This document shows positions 1,789 to 62,994 of a DNA stretch of 64,000 nucleotides, in pieces. The position numbers were made by a program, and so were the translations under genes. Within the stretch, counting starts at the first letter, position 1, and each line of letters starts with the position of its first letter. The notes below the pieces were generated by a model. It was not told where the DNA came from, did no database searches, and saw nothing but the letters and a program-made list of their open reading frames with translations. The stretch is from contig CP141140.1 in the NCBI GenBank assembly GCA_035235625.1, positions 11,242,685 to 11,306,684 of the forward strand, written 5' to 3'. The DNA comes from Saururus chinensis. Its lineage: Eukaryota; Streptophyta; Magnoliopsida; Piperales; Saururaceae.

Positions 1789-1796
1789 GTGCCTAC

Positions 1797-2308
1797 TAGG
1801 GCTGCAAGAATTCGGGCTAGCCCGTAAGCCCGGCCCGGCCCGTAAATTTACTGGCTTGGGCCTTAAAATATAAGCTACGGGCTGGGCCGGTCTTGAAAAT
1901 TTAAAATATGTTGTTATTAGGGCCGGGCCTGGGCCTGGAAAAAAACACATAAAAGCCCGGCCCGGCCCATGACTATTAAGGCTTGCTACCCATTATCTAT
2001 ATGCCAAGCCCAGTACCTAGTTATTAACCCAGTTATCCGAAGCCCAAACCCTAAAATCTCAGCCCATCACTAAAATCTGAGTCCATTCCAAAAATTGAAA
2101 TTTCAGCCCAAAAATTAAAGTTAAAAAATTATTTTACATTAGGTAAGTTTAGGTCCAAAAGCCCATGGCCTGGCACGAACCCGTTCAAATTTAAAAACGG
2201 GCCAGAAGTTTGGCATTAACTCCGGGCCCAGGCCAGGCCTTGTAACTTTTTTTTATTTTTCGGGCCGGGCCTGGGCCTACCCTGGCCCGTCAGGGCTTTG
2301 CAGCCTTA
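1797..2308. mobile_element. Non-autonomous hAT element (MITE), 512 bp
   Basis: The ends are TAGGGCTGCAAG and, read inwards from the right, TAAGGCTGCAAAG. The element is flanked by a perfect 8-bp target duplication GTGCCTAC (1789-1796 and 2309-2316). Eight-bp duplications and short TAGGG-type inverted ends are hallmarks of the hAT superfamily. Subterminal DNA is crowded with GCCCGGCCC/GGGCCGGGC motifs, plausible transposase-binding repeats. There is no coding capacity. It lies about 130 bp upstream of the IPT2-type start codon, so it may sit in that promoter. Confidence 0.9.
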
Positions 2309-2439
2309 GTGCCTACGTACATGCGAGACAACATCTCCCGTGTTTATAGGAAAGTGCTGTATATTTTTTATTAAAAACGAAAAAGAATTTGTGCGGAATT
2401 TGGAGGCAAGGGCGAGGAAGAGAAGGCGAGTAAGAGAGC

Positions 2440-5400
2440 ATGGAATTGGAGCCGGCGGAGATGAACCCTAAACCCGGAAAGCCGAAAGTGGTAGTGATAA
2501 TGGGAGCTACTGGTTCTGGAAAGTCTCGCCTGGCCATCGACCTGGCCGCCTTTTTCCCTGCTGAGATTATCAACGCGGACTCCATGCAGGTTCTTTGATT
2601 TTGGCGTTGTTTGGCTATTGTTCCTAATTACTTATATTGATCGTCTTAATAATCTTTTCAATTCAGGTTTATGAAGGGCTGGATATTCTCACTAACAAAG
2701 TTCCCCTTGAAGATCGCAAAGGTGCTTATATCTTATCTTCATTGCTTCCTGCTTATTACATCTTTTAATATACTAAATATTGTTTCTCTCTTGTCGCGAT
2801 AAAAGTCTCGGTTCCCTTACTCCCACTATGATAGTTCCGATTTAAAGCAACTAAAGCATTTTGACCCATTAATGTCCATTTCGCCCTATAACCTGGACTA
2901 GTTTAAGAAAGATTGGCGAACATTTTCCGTTTGTAACCATCTTTTATTTTTTTCACAGTCATCGCTATTGCTTTGCTTAACCTTTTTTTGCGCGGATTGA
3001 GCTGACCGTTGTATCCTTTATTAAATCATGCAGGAGTTCCGCATCACATTCTGGGGACCATTCCAACAAATGCGGATTTCACGGCCAAGAATTTTCGTGA
3101 TTTGGCAATTCCTGTGAGTTAGATCATTATATCATACCGTTTTAAAATTCCTGCGCGCTTCTAAGAATGGAATGCTGGATAAACTTGATTAACAATTTAA
3201 GAGTAGAGACTGGATAAATTTGTTCAATGGTTGAAAAAAAAAGGGCAAATCTAATCTTTGTTGCTTTTAGTTCCACCATAATTTGTTGTTTACCTTTTCG
3301 TTGCTACCATTTCCACTTTGTGAATTATGATCATGTATTTCAGATAATAGATGATATATTGTCTAGAAATCACTTACCCATCATTGTTGGAGGTACTAAT
3401 TATTATATCCAGGTAGGAACCTGTATCGCTGTGCTATTGTTCTGCTTGTGTTTTCTTTTGAAGGCATTACATAGAATAGTTGACGTGCTGCTAATTGTCT
3501 TTAGGCCCTCCTGTCCCCTTTCCTGCTTGATGAGTTGACAAAGGAAATGCAAGAACTTGGGCATGATGCCCCCTTCGGTAATTATTCATTGCTTAAGAAG
3601 TTGGATTATATTACTTGGAGTTTTTGTCCTTTCATGTTTACTGATATTATTGCAGGGTCCCCGCAAGAAGATTTTAGCTTTGATGAGCGTGGTAATCATT
3701 TGCATTCCAGTTACGACATTCTTAGAGAACTTGATCCAATGGCTGCAAAAAGGATTCATCCAAATGACCATAGAAAAGTATGAGATGATAGATAATTTCC
3801 TTTAATTGCTCATTAAATATAAGTATATTTGTACATGGTATAATATATAGTGATAAAAGAAGCAGAGCTTTCTGATTGAATAGCAATATATTTGGTGAAA
3901 TAGAGTAAATTTTTTTTAATGGTAATAACTTGGAAGCCAAATGTTAAAACTTCAACTATTACAAGAGTATGTGCAATGACTTGTCAGTACATAAGAAGAG
4001 TAAGCAATTTTTTTTTTCTTTTATATGAGTTGCAATTGTGTTTATATTTAAAAAAATCATTATTGCAGGCAGCAGGCTTTTTTATAAAATTATGTATGAG
4101 ATGTAATGGTTATATGATGTATTTGATAGAGGACGTCTTGCTTGCAGATGAACAATTACCTAAGATTGTATGCGAGCTCTGGTGTACTCCCTAGCAATCT
4201 TCTTCAAGGAAAAGCATCAGAGGTTGAGCTCCTTAACTGTGTTAATTGGATAATAGATTGCTTCCTAAATATGAAAATTCATATACTACATCTACGTCCT
4301 AGTTATAAATCTGAAATGGCTTGTCTTTTTTGAAAAAAATCATGGTAAGCTTTTGCATCCACTGACATTAGGAAAAAACACAGATGCATATGCTTGATGA
4401 AGATTTAGTTGATTATTAAATAGTTGTCTGTTACAAATCTAAGTTACCTGTTCTACTCATGTAGTTGAGGCTGTGGTATTTTGTGTGGCAGGGCAGAAAT
4501 GGGGCCGGACCTGTAATCTTCGGTATGATTGCTGCTTTGTATGGGTCGATGCATCTCTCTCCGTGCTCGATCAATTTGTTAATCAAAGGGTAGATAATAT
4601 GGTGAAGGCTGGTCTTCTAGAAGAAGTCTATGAGATCTACAGTCCCAAAGCAGACTATACTCATGGTTTGCTACAGGCTATTGGTGTTCGTGAATTTCAA
4701 GACTTCTTAAAATTTTATCTCTTGGAGAACAGTTCTTCTAAATCTGCCGATAAGAATGATAAGCTCAAGCTGAAAACAGATCTAGATATTAATGACTCAG
4801 AAATCAAGGATTTGTTGATTGAAGCAACTGAAAAGATGAAATTAAATACTCGCAGACTTGTCCGTCGCCAAGTAAATAAGCTTTCCTCAATATGTCTCTT
4901 GCTCTCATGCACATGCTCGTCCATGAACAGGCACACACCACAAAGTACGACATAAATATTAGCATACACTTGCATGAAGATAGGGACTTCATGAGAGTGA
5001 TGCATTTTGTTTTTCGTGGGTCCATCTGGCTGTCTGAAGGCAATGTAGAATGCTAGCATGTGTGATTTTTTCTAAAATGTACAGTCAGAAATATGTAAAT
5101 GCATGGATTCATTTTGACCCATCAATTTTACTTCATTGTTTTGGCAGAAGAGGAGACTTAATCGCTTAATGACATTTTTTGGGTGGGATCTGCAATATAT
5201 TGACGCAACAGAAGCATTCTTGTGTAAGCTCGCGTTTCTTATATTCACGTTTGTAACACCCAGTTATGTATTTCTCGAATTTGGCTGAAACCGGACTGCT
5301 GTCTTTTTTTAATAGGTAAGTTGGAAGAAGATGCATGGGGTGAAAAGGTGGTTAGACCCTGCATATCCATTATCAAGTCATTTTTGCATAGACAGGCACC

Positions 5401-5869
5401 ATTGGACAGGGACTCAAAGCAGGCTGACTTCAACCAACAGTCAAACCAAAGGGATTTGTGGACGCAGTACATATGTGAGGTATATAGTCATTTTCAGTCA
5501 TTTTTTCCAAGCTGTAAGTGTATTTTTTTTCATTTTGAAGTAAGGAAGGCAATCCTTGCGGATAATTCCAGTGTTCCTGCTAATTTTGGTGTATTGAAGT
5601 TTGCCATCGTGATTCATTTAATCATTACTCTTGATGGGCACTTCTTTTATATGTTCTCCTCTAATAAAGAGAGCTAAGTGAGTAGTTGTGATTTCCTTCC
5701 GTAGTTCTGTGGTAATCGGATTCTTCGTGGAGCACATGAATGGGAGCAGCACAAAAATGGGCGTAGTCATAGAAAACGGTTGCTTAGTGTACGGAAGAAG
5801 ATGTCTCAATGCGGCTTGTCGGTAGATGAGCTTAGATCTGCAGATACCAGTCAGCTTAACCCCAAATAG
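2440..5869 (+). CDS. IPT2: tRNA dimethylallyltransferase, IPT2-type, 11 exons
   Basis: The enzyme transfers a dimethylallyl group from DMAPP to the N6 of A37 in tRNAs that read codons starting with U; turnover of such tRNA yields cis-zeatin-type cytokinin. Exons by GT-AG sites and frame: 2440-2589, 2667-2721, 3034-3113, 3344-3412, 3505-3577, 3656-3777, 4148-4222, 4497-4871, 5148-5223, 5316-5479, 5705-5869. They join without a break into 467 residues, close to the length I recall for Arabidopsis IPT2. Visible motifs are the P-loop GATGSGKS (residues 22-29), DSMQVY (about 47-52), [11 protein letters not shown], and IGVREF. The C-terminus has a C2H2 finger (C412, C415, H429, H435) within the [12 protein letters not shown] region, which the bacterial MiaA type lacks. 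Exon 8 is set at 4497 because only that acceptor gives the family frame KWGR. I see no disabling change; a hAT MITE ends about 130 bp upstream. Confidence 0.95.
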
Positions 5870-6404
5870 GAGAGCTGTATGATGCTGTGTAGCTGTACTT
5901 TATGATGCTTTCAGAGTTAATTGTATAGACGATTGCAGGAGCCTACGCTTCTATGAATATGTGGGGACGTGTTTTTTTTTAAATGAGATATAGGAGCTTA
6001 GAATTTACATATTGCAAGTAACGAAGCTTTATTTTGATTTCTATGACTGAAATTTATTGTGCTACGATGAACTGACCGTAATTTCGGTCGTCTGCCATCA
6101 TCAATGATAATGTGTGAATTTCTGTGAGTAGTTCCATCGTATTTGACAACGGAGGTGCTCACACTTAAGGAATTGATCCATTTTTCAATGGCCTCGTCTA
6201 GATCTCCTTTGTTCTATCGTCGTCAGGTGAAAATTGATAGAATAGGGTGGAAATGCTAATTCTTTAAGAATAGGCCTGCATTATTGGCCCACCAATTTTC
6301 AATGGCCTTGCTTACATCTCTTTTGTTCTGACGTCATTCGACGCGTATGTAGCCCATCGTCATTAATTGACGATTGAAAACATTTTCACCATGAAAAATG
6401 TTTA

Positions 6405-6527
6405 TGCTGTATATTTTTTAATTAAAAACGAAAAAGAATTTGTGCGGAGTTTGGAGGAGGCAGGGGCGAGGAAGAGAAGGTGAGTCAGAGAGCATGGAAT
6501 TGGAGCAGGCGGAGATGAACCCTAAAC
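6405..6527 (+). pseudogene. Displaced copy of the IPT2 promoter edge and first codons
   Basis: This stretch repeats 2355-2473 (5' leader, start codon and about 11 codons of the IPT2-type gene) with a few substitutions and small indels. The copied start codon is at 6494-6496 and the match stops abruptly at 6527. The same near-identical 24-bp sequence (TTTTCACYATGAAAAATGTT plus four bases) stands at both edges (about 6383 and 6529). It is too short to encode anything. Confidence 0.85.
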
Positions 6528-6688
6528 TTTTTCACTATGAAAAATGTTTGTGACGTTAAAAAATATATTTAAAAAGTCTACTTTATTTTCGGATCACCAT
6601 TGATAGAGTGGCTACTCATTAATAGTGATGGGAAGATGAAGTAGATTTTTCATGTGCGTTTTTTAGCGTAACATGTTAGCATTACTCT

Positions 6689-6772
6689 AACACAAAACAG
6701 AAAGCAAAGTCTGCATTACTCTAACGTCACGTGCGTTTTTTTTATAGCAGACTTTGTTTTCTGTTTTGTGTT
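6689..6772. repeat. 26-bp inverted repeat, possible hairpin
   Basis: The arms at 6689-6714 and 6747-6772 are reverse complements with one mismatch (core CAAAACAGAAAG / CTTTCTGTTTTG) around a 32-bp spacer. It could be the remnant of a small foldback element. No target duplication was found. Confidence 0.7.
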
Positions 6773-6879
6773 AACGTGATTTAATATTCGAGAAGTCGTT
6801 TTTTTGTATTAAAATTCAAGAATAATGCATTATTCATGTAACATGTTTCCTACTTGCGCACTGTCAAAGCGAAATAGGA

Positions 6880-7680
6880 AAAACGCTTCCGTGATGCGAA
6901 GGGACGGTCACAGCCGATGACCTTTTAAATGGCGTTAGATGCAACAAAGGTTATTAGGGTCAAATTAGAAATAAATGCAGCCAGAAGAAAAAAGAAGAAG
7001 TAACACAAGCCAGAGGAGCTGAATTTGAAGCCAGGTCAACAACACCACGATGTGAGGTGGGGTTCAAGTATGTGATGTAGACAGAGTTGATAGTGGCATT
7101 GTAGGAGGGAGAAAATTTTTAATTAAAATAGAGTTAAAAGAAGAAAAAAATTATTTATTATAAAATATCTATGAGAAATGTTTTAGACTTATTTATATAA
7201 GCACGAGCTAATGGGCAGATTGAATTTTTTTCCCTCTTGTACTGTTAAATCTCAATCCAATAACTTATTATGTTTAGGCTTATGCATAAACTTTTATATT
7301 TTAAAAGGTTTTAATTAAAATAAATAAAAAAAAGAGTAATGAGAACATTATTAAAGCGCGTTCTTCCGTATGTCTCTGGTTTCCATCTCCATACAAGGAG
7401 TATCGTCGCTGTTTCCCTATAAGCGGAATGAACGTGACGAAACAAAAAAACACAAAGAGGGGGACCAGCCAGGGACCCTTGTCATCGGCGACACTACGGT
7501 CTACGCCCCGCGCCGACTTCGAATTGGAAGCTTCCAATTTCGATTGTTTAATGAACAGGAGAACACGGAAACCACCCGGACCCATTAATTATCCGGGTCT
7601 GTCTCGCGTACCCGCGGGCCTCTCCCCAGCCCAGCCATCTTGCGGTCGCGCCTCCCCTCCATTCTGATTTTCGCGCACTC
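6880..7680. other. Spacer and likely promoter of the first CBF gene
   Basis: There is no gene-like frame. The stretch from about 7370 becomes GC-richer towards the CBF gene and probably holds its promoter. CACGTG occurs upstream near 6728. Confidence 0.45.
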
Positions 7681-7692
7681 TATATATATAAA
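7681..7692 (+). promoter_or_regulatory. TATA box of the first CBF gene
   Basis: TATATATATAAA lies about 215 bp before the CBF start codon, in the right orientation and at a spacing that fits the long leader seen here. Confidence 0.6.
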
Positions 7693-7739
7693 CCTCGTGC
7701 ACCCCCGACAGGCCCAGTCCAGTAGGCCTTGTCTGCTGC

Positions 7740-7823
7740 AGCAGGACCAGAACAGAACCAGACGTCTTTTGTTCTTCATTCAGCAGGACCAGAGTAGAAC
7801 CAGACGTCTTTTGTCCTTCATTC
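7740..7823 (+). repeat. 42-bp tandem duplication in the CBF 5' leader
   Basis: Two adjacent copies (7740-7781, 7782-7823) of a unit with the core AGAACCAGACGTCTTTTG differ at only a few bases. They lie between the TATA box and the start codon, so they should be in the 5' UTR. Confidence 0.85.
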
Positions 7824-7907
7824 TTCTTCGTCATCTTTGTTCGACCACTCGATCGGTCGGTGGCTTTCTTTTCACGTAATACGTATAATTTTTTACGTCG
7901 ACAAAGT

Positions 7908-8567
7908 ATGGACGCTGATCAAGACGACCTCTCAGCCGTGTCAGGCTCATCCGACGAGCTCTCCCCTCCCCCTTCCCAGCCGACCTCCTCCTCCTCTGTG
8001 CCGCCCCCCAAGCGCAAGGCCGGCCGCAAGAAGTTCCGAGAAACCCGCCACCCTGTCTACCGCGGTGTTCGGGAGCGCAAAGGCGGCAAGTGGGTCTGCG
8101 AAGTCCGGCAGCCCCACAAGCAGACCCGCATATGGCTCGGCACGTTCCCCACCCCGGAGATGGCCGCACGCGCCCACGATGTCGCCGCCCTTGCCCTCAG
8201 GGGGGACTCCGCCGCCTCCCTCAACTTCCCCGACTCGGCCACGCTTCTACCCCGTGCCCTCTCCTCCTCCCCGGCCGACATCCAGGCCGCCGCCCTAGAG
8301 GCCGCTGAGCTCTTCCGCCCTCCCAGCTCTCTCTCCTCGCCCCCGTTTCCGACATCCCGTTCCGCTTCTGCCACCGAGTGTGGGATTGTGGTTGATGAAG
8401 ATGAGGTGTTCAACATGCCAGCTGTGCTCGCTGACATGGCGCAAGGGTTGCTTATAGGGCTGCACGAAACATGGGCAGGCCTGAAGCCCGGCCCGACCCG
8501 GCCCGAAATTTTATACAATTCGGCTTTAAAATTTGTTGAATCAAACGGGCCGGGCTTGAAAATTTAA
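7908..8567 (+). CDS. Truncated DREB1/CBF-type factor fused to transposon sequence
   Basis: This is the frame readable today: 219 residues. Residues 1-182 are native; the last 37 come from the hAT element that starts at 8455. The protein would bind DRE/CRT promoter elements in cold or drought response. A CBF signature [12 protein letters not shown] (about 38-49) precedes the AP2 domain (about 50-108; [24 protein letters not shown]). DREB position V14 is kept (V63), but position 19 is Gln (Q68) where Glu is usual. The start at 7908 is chosen over upstream in-frame codons because it is the first ATG and gives a normal CBF N-terminus. The acidic C-terminal activation tail is replaced, so DNA binding may remain without normal activation. 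Confidence 0.85.
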
Positions 8568-9007
8568 AGTTTATAAAATTTCGGGCCGGGCTCGGGCCTG
8601 GGCCAAAAATTCTTAAAAGCCCGGCCCGGCCCGGCCCTTTCCAGCCCGTTTAAGCCATATCGATTTTAATTGTGCGGTCCTGCGTCTGCGTGGTTTGGTA
8701 CCATAGGATAAATGCCCATTTCCAGTTTCAGCCAGCAGAGAAGCCCATCGTCTCCGCTGCTCTGCAGCCCTAATTCCTCGCCACTCTCCTGCTTCTGTTT
8801 AGAAGCATATGACTGTAAATGGATGGACACAGAAATGTAAACGTAAATTTGTTATTTTGCAGGTAATCTCTGCAGTTCATGTTTTTTTAACAAAGTTTAT
8901 TTACATGAATAAGTGGTCAATCTTTTGCAACTAGAGTAGTCTTTTGTATGTAAATTATAGTATAAACTTTTCTTGATGACAGTTTTTAATTGGCTATTTG
9001 ACTACAG

Positions 9008-10051
9008 GTTGGGGAAAGTGAACCATTTGTTTCTGAACTTTTAACCGGTCTTCCAGTCACAATAGCCAACCTTGAGCCGCATCAGATTCATATATTCTAT
9101 GAGTCGGTATGCTACCTGGTTCCTACTCCGATGAAACATTTTTTGCTACTTTTAAAGTTCGTTAGAAAGCCTTGAGTGTAATAATGATATTTTTCTTTCG
9201 TCTACAGGTTGGCCAGATGATACAAGCAGAAACTGATCCACAGAAGAGAGATGAGTACCTTCAGAGGCTAATGCAACTCCCAAATCAGGTTTTTGGATTA
9301 ATCTGGAATCAGTTTTTGCTTATTTTTTACTTTCTATTCTTGCTTTTGTATAAAAATGCAGTTACTCTCATTGTTCGTTTTCCCGTTTAACTATTTTTTT
9401 GCCGTTCACATTTCATACCTAGTGGCTTAGTAGGTTAATTCATGATGCAGAAATGGGCAGAAATTATTGGTCAAGCACGGCAAAGTGTTGATTTCCTTAA
9501 GGATCAAGGTGTTATCGAATCGTATTGAATATACTTCAGGTAATGAACCAGGGAAGTTTATACATATATTTGGTGTTATAAAAGAGGCGTGGGGAGGGGG
9601 GTTAGTTTTATCTCGTAAAGGGAAAGAAAAGGATGAAGTTGAGAAAAAAAAGAAATGATAGTCTGCTTGAGATTTTAAACCAAACGAGGGTTTGTCTAAG
9701 AAGAAAATGGCTCTCTTTGGGATGTAGTACTGCGTCCCTATAAAATTGCGTTCCAGAGATGATCTTTCATCTTTCAAAGATCGCATCCGGGATTACCTTG
9801 TCCAGTCAAAGGAATTCTCTGCTCAGGTGAAATAGCTTCACTTAAAACCTGCAGATCTTATCGAATCATTGGATTGTGACTATTTTCTCATAATAAATGC
9901 CAGTAAAATCTTTTGGTATTTTCTACAGGATAATAGAGACCTTTACGCAGAGGAAGCTGCTGCTCAAAGAGAAAGAGAGCGTCAGAGAATGCTTTCCATT
10001 CCAGGGCTTATTGCACCTAGCGAGTTGCAAGATGAGATGGTGGATTCATGA
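9008..10051 (+). pseudogene. Captured fragment of exportin 1 (XPO1/CRM1)
   Basis: Exportin 1 carries proteins with nuclear export signals out of the nucleus. Recognisable exons: 9008-9106 (VGESEPFVSELLTGL), 9208-9288 (DPQKRDEYLQRLM), 9451-9539 (KWAEIIGQARQSV), part of a penultimate exon about 9750-9826 (RDYLVQSKEFSAQ), and the last exon 9929-10051 ending QDEMVDS and stop. Splice sites look normal. The exon 9451-9539 is one base short, shifting frame near 9516. About 470 codons between the third and fourth pieces are missing, with the junction in a non-coding stretch. The 3' flank of the last exon probably includes original 3' UTR. It is a genomic, intron-containing copy and cannot encode a working exportin. 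Confidence 0.92.
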
Positions 10052-10738
10052 GCTTCAGTTACCTAATTAAATTTGTCTTACACACAGGATGGCTGATGTG
10101 GACTGCCAAATTTTCAACAGAGGTGTCCACCAAAACTGCCGCACTTAAGTTTTGTCTCTAGAGGCTGACGACTCATGATCTGATTCTGGTACAAGAGTTT
10201 TTTTTAACTGCTGATGATACTTGCGGAACATTGTAATGCCAGTTGAAGCAGTTTATAGTGGGTTTTGTCAAATTGAAACTTTCTACAAGTATACAAGTAT
10301 CGGCTTCCTTTTTGTCATTGGAACTCTGGCATGGTTTGTGCTATTAGCAGTGGATGCCGGCTTAATTGGAATAGCACAGGACACTTGGGGCGATTAGTGT
10401 TTGTATAAAGTTGTTTAACCTGCAGTTTGTCTAAATGCAGCAGATTGTACTTGCATGAGGCGTGAATGAAACGTACTCAGGGCTGGCAGGTTGTTTTTCA
10501 GTGATAAACTATGATGAGGCGTGTGAGCGAATGGAATTCTAATGTATTTAGTAAACCAATTATTTTAAGGTAAGGACTGGACACTGTTCTTTATGGAAGG
10601 TCGTTTCTTTTCAATACTTTGGCCATTTCTATTTCTTGCTTCTTTGATATATGCTAAATTGCTAATTGCTACTTACTTAGAGTTTCCATTTTCATGGTGG
10701 TGAGTAGTTTGAAATTATGTGTGATACTGTTTTTGCAG

Positions 10739-11910
10739 GAGGAGCTAAGCTGGACTGAAATGTTAATAAAACTCAACATCGGAAGGGAGGTTAGAAATTT
10801 TGGTCTTTCATTAACAAGTGAAAATGATGATAAATTAGTGCTGAAAGTTTATTAATAATTACAAATAAAAAATGCCTAGTACAAAAGGGAAGTTTGAATT
10901 TTGTTGCATTGTTTAAGTTCGGGGGTAATAATTTCATTTAGTTACGGGCTGATGTAGAGTTGGTTGTTGATGAGGTGTGGAGAATTGCCATATTATTCTA
11001 AACAGAGCATGCAATATTAGGATTGAACTTTGCCTATTGGAAAATTGGACTCTGATGAGAGACCAATCTACGGGGTTATTTACGCATCCTTGACATTGCC
11101 TAAAAGGAAAGTAAGCAAACATCTCTATTTCCTGTGAGGACAATTTCAAAGAGGCCTTGCATTCCTGATTTGTTCTTGGCATTTAGTAAAAGTGAAATGA
11201 TTTAGAAAGTGATTCCATGTGCTAAAAGCTGAGATGAACAATCTGTATGAAATGGTAATCAAAGGTTGGAATTACTTGACACCTTCTCTCTTGATGCCTA
11301 AATCTTATGCAGGATTTGTCTTGTTAGTAAATTAGTAATGCCAAAGATGTTTGCTAAAATTTGGTTTGACTAGTTTCATGGATCCTTTGTGGTCAAAGAA
11401 TGTTGCCTGAGAGTATTTGTGCTATCTCTTGCAGGCTGTATGGGTTCACTGCTGCTTCCTTTTTCAGTTCATGATTAAAAATATTATGAGTGACCGTTGT
11501 GCTTGTTGCAGCCATGCGGAGAATAATTTGAGCAGCTTTTTGGATGTTGAGTTGCAGTTTTTTCATTCGTGTTTGAAATTGCTAAGTAGTGATTTTGAGG
11601 ATGGCCAATCACAATCAACTAATGACCTCTCAACTCTTCCCGGTACTTGTTTTATAATTGACTTTTATTTTATGTGTAGCTAGCTGGTCTATTATTTTGT
11701 TCATTGTTCTTTGAATGCTTCTTTTTCTTCATATTCTTTCTCCTCTGTTTGCAGGGCATGCCACCACCTAAAATTGGGTTTAAATCAGTCCACCAACCCC
11801 ATGACTGTCTATCCCAGAAAGCCCCAGCACCAGATGATCATCACATAGTTCCACGCTTGCCCAACAAAGTAAAGTTAGAATACATGAAGAAGAAAGGAGA
11901 CAGTCAATAG
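10739..11910 (+). pseudogene. Captured exons of an unidentified gene
   Basis: Three exon-like blocks have AG/GT borders: 10739-10789 (17 codons, contains SWTEMLIKLNIG), 11512-11642 (open in one frame only; FLDVELQFFHSCLKLLSSDF), and 11755 onward (KIGFKSVHQPHD and PAPDDHHIVP, ending at 11910). The last block recurs at 51531-51730 in the related element. The phase of block two does not join cleanly to the open frame of block three, so either the splice assignment or the copy is faulty. I do not recognise the family, and whether all blocks come from one donor is unknown. Confidence 0.55.
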
Positions 11911-12414
11911 GGCAAAGTTATGTTGGGCAGTAAGAACTGGATTCTACTTTCCCATAGACCAATATGTGTCTCTCCTCAAAATGAGAACGGAAAAGCCCCT
12001 AGACAGGAATTATAGCTCCTTGTAATCCTTAATTGCTCTAGAGTAAAAATTATTCTACTATAGAAATTATTGCACTATCAATGATGTATATTGACAGGAA
12101 TTATAGCTCTAAGATATAGATTTATCATTTGTAAGAAAAATTTTATATTACTTTGATTTCGGCCCGAAAGCCCGTGGCCCGGCCCGGCCCGTTGAAATTT
12201 TGGGCCGGGCCGAAAATTTGAACTTAGTTACGGGCTTTGGGCCCAATTTTGAAAAACAAAAATTTTATGGGCCGGGCTTGGGCTTGCCCCAGCTCGTCAG
12301 GGCCTGGCCCATTTGCAGCCCTAGTTGCTTATGCTGCCGCCACATCTGCAAAAGGAGTTCGACACCAATACTGACAACAACGACCACGTCCACGTCTCCT
12401 TGTGGAGTGACTAA

Positions 12415-36149: not shown

Positions 36150-36659
36150 ATGGCGAGTGAGGAAGAAGCACTTCAACCCTCCTCCTTCTCTACCACCCAC
36201 ATCCTCTCCTCCTCCTCTCACAAGCGCAGGGCCGGCCGTAAGAAATTTCGGGAGACTCGCCATCCGGTCTTCCGTGGCGTCCGCCAGAGGAGGAGCGGTA
36301 AGTGGGTCTGCGAGGTGCGGGAGCCCCGGAAGAAATCTAGAATATGGCTGGGCACCTTCCCAAATCCGGAGATGGCCGCCAGGGCTTACGACGTCGCCGC
36401 CCTGGCCCTCCGTGGCAGCTCCACCCCTCTCAACTTCCCCGACTCGTCGTGGACCCTCCCACGACCGGAGTCATCCTCGGTCAGGGACATCCAGGCGGCA
36501 GCCGCACAGGCTGCCAGAGAATCTTCGGGTTCAGCGCTTCCATCTCCTCCTGCCACTATCGAGTTTGTTGACGAAGAGGCCGAGTTCAACATGCCCTCCT
36601 TGCTCACTAGCATGCATGGCGGAGGGGCTGTTGCTTGCCCCTCCCCGTGTCGGGTTTGA
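36150..36659 (+). CDS. DREB1/CBF-type factor with frameshifted C-terminus
   Basis: Single-exon AP2/ERF factor of the CBF group, expected to bind DRE/CRT (CCGAC) elements. The signature [12 protein letters not shown] (about 28-39) precedes an intact AP2 domain (about 40-98; [24 protein letters not shown]), with V53 and E58 at the DREB-diagnostic positions 14 and 19. Acidic [17 protein letters not shown] follows at about 136-152. After Met155 a 4-bp tandem duplication (CATGCATG, 36611-36618) shifts frame, so the ORF ends after 169 residues with a non-homologous tail. Reading through without the extra 4 bp would give 186 residues with the family's LW-type end. A sequencing or assembly error cannot be excluded. 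Confidence 0.9.
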
Positions 36660-48974: not shown

Positions 48975-51900
48975 TAGAAAATACGGGCAGGCCCAAAGCC
49001 CAGCCCGAAATTTTATATTATTGGGTTTTCGAATTTAGTGAATTAATCGAGCCGAGCTTAAAATTTTACGATTTATGAAATTTTGGGCCGGGCTCGGGCC
49101 TGGGCCAAAAATTCTTAAAAGCCCGGCCTGGGCCGTTCCAGCCCGTTCATGTTTTAAGCCATCGTCATTCTGCATTTGCCATTTTAATTGTGCAGTTGTC
49201 CCTTTAGGTTTGCAGCTCGTCGTCTCCTGCTTATTTTGTCGCTCTGCAGCCCTAAAATTTTAGCCCCCGCTCTGCCGCCCTAAAATTTTAGCCCGTTGTC
49301 TCCTGCTTCTTCTGCCACACTGCACCCCTAAACTTTCCCCGCCGCTCTGCAATCTACATTCCATTTCGCCTTCAGGCCTTCAACATTAGGAAATGCGCTC
49401 TCCCTGCAGACATGGGATGTTCATGTTTCCAGTGTGATAGAATGGTTGGAGTTGGCAACTGTGGCTTGTACTAAAATTTCTGGCTTCGTTTAGTTTTTGT
49501 ATGCACTGAATAATTCATGCTTTTATGTTGTTTGGTCGAAGGATTACGGCCATGGCTTTAGTTTGGCAGTACGGGGAAAGGTCTAGATATGAGTCTTGGA
49601 AGGGGCTCTCCTGGGGCATGGTATGCTTCTTGCTTCACATTCTTTCCATTTGAGTTTGAAGTGTCACATTTTTGCTAAATTAACACATATAAGATCTGTA
49701 TAGATGTCTGCAACCAATATCTTGTTCTTCGTTGTGTGCTCTGCTTAATAGTTAGCCAGGAGACTTTAGAAACAAACCAGCTCAAAAGTGACTCACCTGT
49801 GCATTTATCCTTTTTTCCAATTAAGGAAAATTTAATTATTTCTTAAATAAAATTGTGCTAAGAAAAAAAAATCAAATGATAATAATCATTTGTTCCTTGT
49901 TTTGGGAGATTACACTCTCACTAGTTTTTGGAGAAGAGATAAAAAAAGTCGGCAACATATCTCAGTTGAGCATCAAAGATTATACGAGGATTCTATTAAT
50001 AAATTGTTGTACCTAATATTGATTCTATCAAGTAAATTGTGTCGCATTAATTTCTCTAGCTTCATGCTTCTATTTATATGTTAAATTTGCCGATGCTTCT
50101 CACAATCTTCATTCAGTAACTATAAATATTATCCAACTATTGATTATAACACTGAAGATTTTCTGGATATGGACGTATGGTACCCCTTCATCAGCCCTGA
50201 TACTAGTTCATTCATTGTGCGTACATAACTCAACCTTGAATTATGTTTATAATACCTACAACATCATATTTCAATTCCTTGACGTGCATCAAGGGGTCAC
50301 CCTTTACAGATAGTACATTCTAAGACATAACTATACTGCTATATCACTAAATGTAACTCAACCTTGACTTATGTTTATCGTATTTCCAGAATCAGATTTT
50401 AATACCTTGACATGCAACGAGGGGTCACCCTTTACAAATAGTACTTTCTAACATCAACGATTCTTTGTGTTTATTGTTTTATATATCTTGTACCTTAACG
50501 TAATAATTGTCACAGGTACCCTTACTTGGTGGAGGCCTTTGTGCATGCACGTGGCATTTTTTTTATAATGCGGATCGAATCTCTTGATGTAAGTCAGGCC
50601 TACCTGCTATCTTCATGAAATTTTTTATCTTGCTGTATCTTAAGTTTCATGATTATGTTTGGTTCTATATAAGCGGTAAATGCTAAATTTTAACAGCCTA
50701 CCCATCCTTATTTATGACAGAGTCATAGAGCAAAATCATATATAGTTCTTAAGAAAGGTGATGTTTTATGGGTCACCTTACTATTCACTCTGCAGAGCAT
50801 GGTAAAAAATTTCATTTTCAAATGGAAGCTTTTGCATTTAGAGCATGGTAAAAAATTCCATTTTCAAATGGAAGCTTTTGCATTTACTAAAATTTTTAAA
50901 AGTTTCAACTAGTGCCAATTGGAAATATCTTGATTGACAGAATTGGGAAAAAATCTAGGCCAATGCAAAGACAGCTGAACTGAGTCAAGTTGATTTGGGA
51001 ATTTTGTATTAAAAAGATTTATTTTGAGTGTAATGGCGCATATGGTTATCACAATATTACTTAGCATGACTGTAATGGCCAATCAGGACAATGAAACTTG
51101 CCCTTGATGTCGAAATTTTTGTTGATTGCCTACAAGGGTGCTGCTCGTTGCAGCTCTTATCTAACAATAAGTTCAGAAATGTATTAAAAGAGAATATGAT
51201 TGAAAAATAGTAGGTAAGTTGAAATGATTGAGGAGACGTTGAGAGAGAGGTGACAAGCGACAAGAAGAAGCTAAGCTGATACTTCAGTAACTCCTTTAAG
51301 CGAGGGAGTTTTTTATTTTTTATTTTGGTAATACCTTTAAAGCTAGTTAATGGGCTTTATATGCCTCCTTATAGATTTGAACTGACAGTACTTAATTAAG
51401 TTAGGACTATTGTTTATAGCTTATGGCTTCAAAAAGCTTGTTTACAATACGGCTAAAATACATTCCATTATTTGTTCGGGCTATGATGCTTGTTTTATTC
51501 TCTTCATATTCTTTCTCCTTTATTTGCAGGGCATGCTACCACCTAAAATTGGGTTTAAATCCGTCCACCAACCCCATGACCGTCTATCCCAAAAAGCCCC
51601 AGCACCAGATGATCATCACATAGTTCCACATTTGCCCAGCAAAGTAAAGTTAGAACACCTGAACAAGAAAGGAGACAGTCAACAGGGCAAAGTTATGTTG
51701 GGCAGTAAGAACCGCATTCTACTTTCTTAGCGACCGATATGTGTCTCAGCCTTCGTTTCCCAACTAGATCAGTCAAAATGAGAACGGAAAAGCCCCCTAG
51801 ACAGGAATTATAGCTCCTTGTTATCCCTAATAGATCTATGTAATCAAGAGTAAAAATTATTCTATATTGGAGGGTGTGGTACTTATAGAAATTCTTGCAC

Positions 51901-52160
51901 TATCAATGATGATATAACATTTTATAGGTATATATAATTGTATTTTTAGAGGAATTATAGCTCAAGATATAGATTTATCATCTGTAAGAAAAAATTTATA
52001 TCACATTGATTTTGGATCGAAAGCCTGTGGCCCGGCTTGAGCCCGTTGAAATTTTAGGCCGGGCTGAAATTTTGATTTTGGTAATGGGCTTTGGGCCCAG
52101 TTTTTTAAAAAAAAATTTATAGGCCGGGCCTGGGCTTGCCACAGCCTGTTTGCAGCCCTA
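48975..52160 (+). mobile_element. Second member of the gene-capturing hAT family (about 3.2 kb)
   Basis: The left subterminal zone (GGGCAGGCCC...GGGCCGGGCTCGGGCCTGGG) matches 8466-8700, and the right 700 bp matches 11690-12323, ending GCAGCCCTA. About nine bases of the left terminus are missing compared with the copy at 8455, and no target duplication is seen, so it is probably no longer mobile. The middle (49400-51000) differs from the other copy, with exon-like blocks at about 49549-49620 and 50515-50590 that I cannot name. Internal tandem duplications: 50227-50455 (about 120-bp period) and 50795-50886 (46 bp). Confidence 0.8.
51531..51730 (+). pseudogene. Second copy of the unidentified captured exon
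   Basis: After TTTGCAG the frame reads KIGFKSVHQPHDRLSQKAP, PDDHHIVPHLPSKVKLEHL and ends NRILLS at a stop (51728-51730). It matches 11755-11910 at most positions, but this copy stays open 20 codons longer. The donor gene is unknown. Confidence 0.55.
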
Positions 52161-62415: not shown

Positions 62416-62994
62416 TTAATTATAGTTCCACAACTTTAGAGCGTCCGTGCCAGACACATCTGCCTCATCCTCGTCCTCACTCATAAGAGGAGGGCTAATA
62501 AGCATTCCTTCCGCCATTTTAATAAGAAGGTTGGGCATGTCAAAGATGGCCTCTTCATCTATGAATTCAACTGTCAATTCTTGGTGAAATTCCAAAGTGT
62601 TACCCTCGGCACAAATTGGCAAAGACACTGGAATTGCTGTGGCATTGGCGGCGGCGGCTGCAGCAGCTTCAGCGGCTGATCGGATGTCTGCTGGCGCGGT
62701 GGAAGCAGGGACAGGAAGCTTGGAGGCGGAAGCAGGGAAGTTAAGCTCCGTTCCTTGGCCTTTGAGGGCCAATGAAGCTACGTCGTAAGCCACTGCGGCC
62801 ATTTCCGGCAGGATGTAGGTGCCAAGCCATATGCGGTTCGGCGTCCTGGGCTCGCGGATCTCGGCCACCCATTTACCGTTGCTCCGCTGCCTGACTCCTC
62901 GGTAAACAGGGTGCGGCCCCGGCCCAGTTCTTGCGCCCGTGCCTTGTCTACTTGTCGAAGAAAGATCGTAGGCAGGCCGAGAGGGATGCATCAT
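62416..62994 (-). CDS. DREB subgroup A-4 transcription factor, ERF025/026/027-like
   Basis: Intact single-exon AP2/ERF factor of 192 residues. AP2 domain about 29-86 ([33 protein letters not shown]); V43 and E48 keep the DREB-type residues 14 and 19, pointing to DRE/CRT binding. There is no CBF signature before the domain. After an alanine run (about 105-120), the C-terminus has [26 protein letters not shown] and ends LKLWNYN, typical of the ERF025/026/027 branch. The first of two adjacent Met codons was taken as start; either works. It is about 26 kb from the nearest CBF gene and on the opposite strand. The specific member is uncertain. Confidence 0.93.

Follow-up and report, generated by a model that had tools for sequence, protein, structure and literature searches.

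A gene-carrying hAT element with fragments of exportin 1 and a PTAR1-like gene interrupts a CBF/DREB1 coding region in Saururus chinensis

Analysis of a 64-kb stretch of the Saururus chinensis genome (hereafter the window; G000:C1:11242685-11306684) revealed a 3,869-bp element at 8455-12323 on the plus strand that carries pieces of two host genes and has inserted into codon 183 of a 209-codon CBF/DREB1 frame. With high confidence in the account as a whole, we identify it as a Pack-type hAT transposon that is non-autonomous. It is a well-resolved new example of the known gene-carrying hAT elements, not a new kind. The ends, duplications, donors, further copies, related transposase frames and truncation on which this account draws can all be read from the assembled sequence.

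Results

Structure of the element

The limits of the element were set by its ends, its target duplication and its other copies. The terminal inverted repeats are exact, with TAGGGCTGCA at 8455-8464 on the plus strand and the right repeat, oriented on the minus strand, at 12314-12323, where the element ends TGCAGCCCTA, and they are bordered by a perfect 8-bp target site duplication (TSD), GTTGCTTA, at 8447-8454 and 12324-12331. The first-pass annotation had reported these identical ends and this duplication together with exons of exportin 1 and of a second gene inside the element and a CBF frame that closes when the element is removed, and all of these observations held on closer analysis.

From left to right, all on the plus strand, the element consists of a left end common to transposase-bearing elements (8455-8795, about 81% by sequence comparison), a 34-bp stretch similar to one in the copies L019 and L020 (8796-8829), exportin-1 piece A with mid-gene exons and introns (8830-9749), exportin-1 piece B with the last exons and 3' flank (9752-10634), a fragment of a PTAR1-like (prenyltransferase alpha repeat) gene (about 10632-11613), and a right end (11609-12323) whose last 532 bp are 81% identical to the transposase-bearing relative L045. 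Piece A is 95.8% identical to positions 4908-5825, and piece B 95.1% identical to positions 8920-9814, of the donor locus L022 on C5, and the PTAR1-like fragment is 94% identical to the locus L044 on C1. As in Pack-TYPE elements, fragments of host genes thus lie between the ends with their donors elsewhere, and a functional transposase is absent: the three forward frames contained no long transposase frame, no ORF of at least 150 aa lies wholly within the element on either strand, and the L045 transposase gave no DNA alignment to it. A peptide-like stretch at 11757-11908 in the right end had no Pfam match.

The interrupted CBF/DREB1 gene

Upstream of the element, the CBF/DREB1-type gene (7908-8454, plus strand) retains its first 182 codons plus 1 nt as an open reading frame, including a complete AP2 domain at residues 49-99 (Pfam PF00847, E 9.7e-15); downstream, at 12332-12414 on the same strand, lie the last 80 nt of coding sequence and the stop codon, assigned from the joined frame and from a tblastn match of residues 189-209 at 12349-12411. 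When the element and one copy of the duplication were removed, the joined flanks formed a 209-codon frame ending at a stop at 12412. The AP2 domain, its CBF-type flanks and the tail identify the gene as CBF/DREB1. We aligned it with nine relatives, namely eight chosen among 120 listed homologues and a paralogue frame at window 62416-62994; the alignment was gap-free at the insertion point, with small gaps further on. The listed relatives came from many angiosperms, and identity reached at most 68% among the nine aligned. A stop-free paralogue at C2:48.88 Mb matched residues 29-208 at 67%, spanning the insertion point. Both flanking parts match one gene, and their origin from two different loci was ruled out by the gap-free alignment and the C2 paralogue.

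As it stands, the frame (7908-8567, plus strand) encodes 182 CBF residues followed by 37 residues read over the junction and then a stop. Its product would retain the AP2 DNA-binding domain and would lack the last 27 residues, including conserved positions: the invariant Pro-Pro and Leu-Trp columns of the alignment lie beyond the insertion point. The disruption of a cold-response regulator proposed in the first-pass annotation stands in the sense that one CBF, which has several paralogues, is truncated at its C-terminus; reduced CBF activity or loss of activation would be a putative consequence. The effect may be buffered because the genome contains other CBF-like frames, ten of them at 10.745-10.894 Mb on C7 and two in the window besides the interrupted one. 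Among the papers listed on this subject, titles and opening abstracts mentioned no hAT insertion in a CBF coding region.

Donor loci

A search of the 516-Mb assembly (11 contigs) placed the exportin donor at C5:1,887,408-1,892,313 (L022/L023), where the matches to pieces A and B lie 3.1 kb apart with exons between them; these 3.1 kb, absent from the element, are still present at the donor. The exons at this locus matched solved structures of exportin 1 (E 7.2e-27). The name is taken from this comparison and not from Pfam, which assigned no family name to the exportin exons (0 families in one run and one weak unrelated match in another). For the second donor, L044 at C1:59.447 Mb, the stitched exons contained the prenyltransferase alpha repeat PPTA above the Pfam cut-off (E 3.6e-10). 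A single exon scored only 0.97 for PPTA, and its comparison with solved structures yielded nothing useful (best E 2.4). We refer to this gene as PTAR1-like. The fetched donor stretches, 18 kb on C5 and 7 kb on C1, contained no family ends.

Within the element, a premature stop is present in one of the piece-A exons, and those that separate A from B in the donor are absent, so that no whole exportin is encoded, and the last exon of piece B is still open. This last feature, the AP2 domain kept in the truncated frame and the orientation of the exportin and PTAR1 pieces in line with CBF would suit a functional exon shuffling in which a chimera, either CBF-exportin or CBF-transposon, is expressed from the CBF promoter. 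However, the unspliced frame ends at 8567, ahead of any exportin exon, and together with the piece-A stop and the missing exons this makes such a product highly improbable.

Family members and transposase

Relatives were sought with two composite queries, the left end plus exportin (174 first-look candidates) and PTAR1 plus the right end (203 candidates); the best 40 of each were scored, so that counts of members are lower bounds. The ends were inspected in 11 family members, two of which (window 48978-52160 and L028) had an unrecognisable left end. A perfect 8-bp TSD was found in seven of the nine both-ended members (the window element, the element at window 1797, L020, L021, L024, L043 and L045); that of L019 matched at 7 of 8 positions, and L026 had none. 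The lack of a matching TSD in L026 counts against the best explanation.

Two of these relatives lie in the window itself. The first is a small element of 512 bp at 1797-2308 on the plus strand, with one right-end mismatch and the TSD GTGCCTAC at 1789-1796 and 2309-2316. The other, at 48978-52160 on the plus strand (left limit approximate), is decayed, with an intact right end and no recognisable left terminal repeat. Chance resemblance of the inverted ends was ruled out because same-ended relatives have distinct TSDs.

The family shows the characters of the hAT superfamily. Besides the 8-bp TSDs (seven perfect, one 7 of 8 and one absent; n=9), short terminal inverted repeats of the TAGGGCTGCA type were present in the window element, L024, L026 and L045, some with one mismatch, and Pfam detected a BED finger, an RNase-H fold and a hAT dimerisation region in the frames of L045 and L047, outside the window element. 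The hAT identity assumed on first reading was thereby borne out by same-ended relatives with hAT transposase domains. L045 (C2:40.28 Mb; TSD GTTTCACA) is free of stops over 631 codons, a stretch that encodes zf-BED, hAT-like RNase-H and Dimer_Tnp_hAT domains. A coding-looking stretch following this transposase was considered as a Suc_Fer-like sequence, and Pfam and protein searches gave no match.

In the transposase search, the best 70 of 1,740 candidates were scored. Besides L045, three loci were 95-99% identical to the transposase query and stop-free over nearly the full length of that query, at C6:11.28 Mb (714 codons), C2:54.63 Mb (715 codons) and C9:6.10 Mb (707 codons); the other stop-free matches among the 70 were below 45% identity or partial. 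The C6:11.28 Mb locus has an ATG-started 703-aa frame with the same three domains as L045 and is flanked by matches to both family ends. A transposase source for the family plausibly exists, given these stop-free frames with hAT domains and the family ends flanking the C6 frame.

Copies of the chimera and insertion age

The join between exportin pieces A and B was found at four places, each inside family ends (all 20 candidates were scored). The three copies outside the window are L021 (C2:47.58 Mb; TSD GTATTGTG), L019 (C1:15.96 Mb; TSD ATGCCATA/GTGCCATA, 7 of 8 matching) and L020 (C8:5.49 Mb; TSD TCCTCAGG). Since the join recurs in three other family-ended copies, two with perfect TSDs and one with 7 of 8, the arrangement is not due to chance. 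L019 and L020 are without most of the sequence corresponding to window 9843-10886. Exportin pieces at C6:26.79 Mb and at two places on C9 were considered as Pack copies; the fetched stretches had no family ends, and we treat these pieces as other exportin duplicates. The end check of other exportin matches took in these three places, two further matches on C9 and one on C10 lying outside it.

Over the 2,776 alignment columns filled in all four copies, private changes numbered 24 in the window copy, 65 in L021, 24 in L020 and 15 in L019, and of the sites dividing the copies two against two, 21 united the window copy with L021 and three supported other pairings. Plant sequences accumulate 1-1.5e-8 substitutions per site per year, and the 24 changes in 2,776 columns would place the window insertion at roughly 0.6-0.9 million years as an upper limit.

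Order of assembly and number of exportin captures

L043 (C4:30.64 Mb; TSD CGTAGGCC) has family ends, a longer PTAR1 piece and no exportin match, and its junction between PTAR1 and the right end is the same as in the window element. Because this member has the PTAR1 piece alone, joined to the right end in this shared way, capture of PTAR1 probably preceded that of exportin, which replaced the left interior; L043 is the one intermediate behind this order.

A second lineage comprises L024 (C6:41.34 Mb; TSD CTCTTCAT) and L026 (C7:40.00 Mb; no matching TSD), both of which have transposase frames broken by stops and exportin sequence corresponding to donor positions 8130-9774. L028 contains donor positions 8322-9774 and a right end, with no intact left end. 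The limits in the lineage of the window element are 4908-5825 and 8920-9814 in the same coordinates. In L024 and L026, a 48-bp right-subterminal hAT stretch occurs on either side of the exportin sequence. Its two copies are 87.5% identical to each other in L024 and 85.4% in L026, and the exportin junctions share the bases CA on the left and TTTAT on the right, as read by eye. An apparent common start base had suggested that piece B derived from an L024-like element; comparison with the donor showed that the L024 sequence starts upstream of piece B and stops 40 bp short of its end, and this derivation was rejected.

We compared piece B in seven rows: the window copy, L021, L024, L026, L028, the donor and the outgroup L029. 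L019 and L020, which have only 91 bp of B, and other matches from the exportin search were excluded. At two-state sites, four changes separate all five element copies from the donor and L029, 12 separate the donor from all others, two unite the window copy with L021 and two unite L024, L026 and L028; the remaining sites are mostly private, with a few in conflict. The maximum-likelihood tree likewise united the five element copies to the exclusion of the C5 donor with 89/86 support, and no branch in it reached the 95 and 80 mark.

Two readings stand on this sequence comparison: exportin may have been captured once and later trimmed, or captured twice from a lost allele or paralogue. A single event in which a transposase-bearing ancestor took up a larger piece, with the two lineages as differently trimmed descendants, is given a little under an even chance. 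It fits the grouping of the five copies and the four changes common to them; against it, the limits differ between the lineages so that several trims would be needed, no branch reaches the mark, and the same tree would result if a donor allele or paralogue had been lost.

Discussion

Proposed assembly and mobilisation of the element

It is known that hAT elements capture genes, and how they do so is not settled. We propose that a TAGGGCTGCA-ended hAT family took up part of a PTAR1-like gene and that its left interior was then swapped for exportin-1 DNA. The chimeric element, present in at least four copies, would have been moved in trans by the family transposase; one copy inserted in codon 183 of the CBF gene on C1 and duplicated GTTGCTTA.

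By a slight preference, we suggest that the host DNA was copied by template switching during repair of an excision break or a stalled fork. In this view, synthesis would have jumped from the transposon template to the exportin gene and resumed on the transposon slightly upstream. The few bases shared at the junctions and the repeat in L024 and L026 are consistent with template switching, and the fetched donor stretches, being without family ends, weakly favour it. The 48-bp repeat is also compatible with fusion of two neighbouring elements.

Such a fusion, in which two family elements flanked host DNA, lost their inner ends and moved as a single element, has been proposed for Pack-TYPE elements including hAT (PMC8903248). 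The direct repeat around exportin in L024 and L026 would fit it, and in the window itself two family elements are separated by 6.1 kb (2308 to 8455) that include most of the CBF gene. However, the C5 and C1 donor stretches have no family ends, although excision could have erased them, and exportin seems to have entered an element that already carried PTAR1 and that lost part of its interior; on balance, we consider fusion unlikely. Returning to template switching, we advance only tentatively the wider proposal that exportin 1 is captured again and again by a single hAT family whose transposase frames are open, including into transposase-bearing copies, and that the junctions record template switching during repair.

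Relation to known gene-carrying elements

In the literature consulted (PMC8903248, PMC8277862, PMC13317346, PMC2528002 and PMC3260210), hAT elements are already known to capture genes. Gene-carrying hAT elements are published for maize, rice and grapevine (PMC8903248, PMC3260210, PMC2528002), and a figure legend in PMC8903248 names a Pack-hAT within a maize locus. The suggestion in the first-pass annotation that a hAT version with two donors that also disrupts a cold-response regulator is unusual is qualified by these reports, although PMC3260210 describes two Ds2 and nine Ds-l4 elements with gene fragments in maize and regards such elements as rare within hAT.

The window element resembles the maize and rice Pack-hAT/Pack-TYPE elements (PMC8903248) in being non-autonomous, with hAT ends, an 8-nt TSD and captured gene fragments, in acquiring further fragments internally and in inserting into genes; it differs in its ends and species and in having two large intron-containing donors and a one-donor intermediate. 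Members of the grapevine hAT family Hatvine-6 likewise share a transposase and ends and have a variable region that is often genic, whereas exportin/PTAR1 capture and CBF insertion do not appear in the excerpted description of that family (PMC2528002). Ds2 and Ds-l4 also belong to the hAT superfamily and have 8-bp TSDs and genomic, intron-containing fragments, but their ends are of the Ac/Ds type (PMC3260210). The Pack-TIRs of PMC8277862 are similarly chimeric TIR elements with donor genes, per-copy TSDs and junction microhomology, but are animal elements; according to that paper, single-copy ones arise mostly via gap filling and multicopy ones via fork switching followed by transposition.

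In S. chinensis, one assembly holds the donors, a one-gene intermediate, four chimera copies, transposase-bearing relatives and an insertion in a regulatory gene. If exportin has indeed been captured repeatedly by template switching, hAT gene capture would be traceable stepwise within one genome. Should CBF activity prove to be reduced, the insertion would represent natural variation in a cold-response gene, for which other CBF-like genes may compensate.

Exportin-derived sequences

In the comparison of the four copies that carry the exportin A-B join, the copy at C2:47.58 Mb (L021) had 65 private changes, versus 15–24 in each of the other three. This indicates an uneven rate in L021, and C-to-T and G-to-A changes alone do not account for the excess.

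Partial exportin duplicates were also present at L029/L030, L050, and L051 (C6:26.79 Mb, C9), and no hAT ends were found in the stretches fetched for these loci. Homology to the 3' flank of the exportin donor extended to L029/L030 and L050.

Family elements and CBF-like frames

The transposase-bearing family element at C2:40.28 Mb (L045) contains a coding-looking stretch between the transposase and the right end (L045:5966-6561), for which Pfam and protein searches returned no match. Within the window, a third family relative (48978-52160) retains an intact right end, its left terminal repeat is not recognisable, and its right part is 79% alike to that of the Pack element. The inverted terminal repeat TGCAGCCCTA also occurs inside the Pack element's left end (8763-8772), where it belongs to a subterminal stretch of which relatives seem to have repeated copies; this internal copy could serve as an alternative end.

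Two further CBF/DREB1-like frames lie in the window, at 36150-36659 and 62416-62994, the alignment of the latter spanning the insertion point of the interrupted CBF. Ten CBF-like open frames occur inside 150 kb of contig C7 of the same assembly (10745487-10894274).

Another element, 512 bp long, has ends of the family type and is bordered by a perfect target site duplication, GTGCCTAC; together with the duplication it occupies window positions 1789-2316. The Pack element follows 6.1 kb downstream, which leaves the CBF promoter and AP2 region flanked by two family elements whose ends are compatible.
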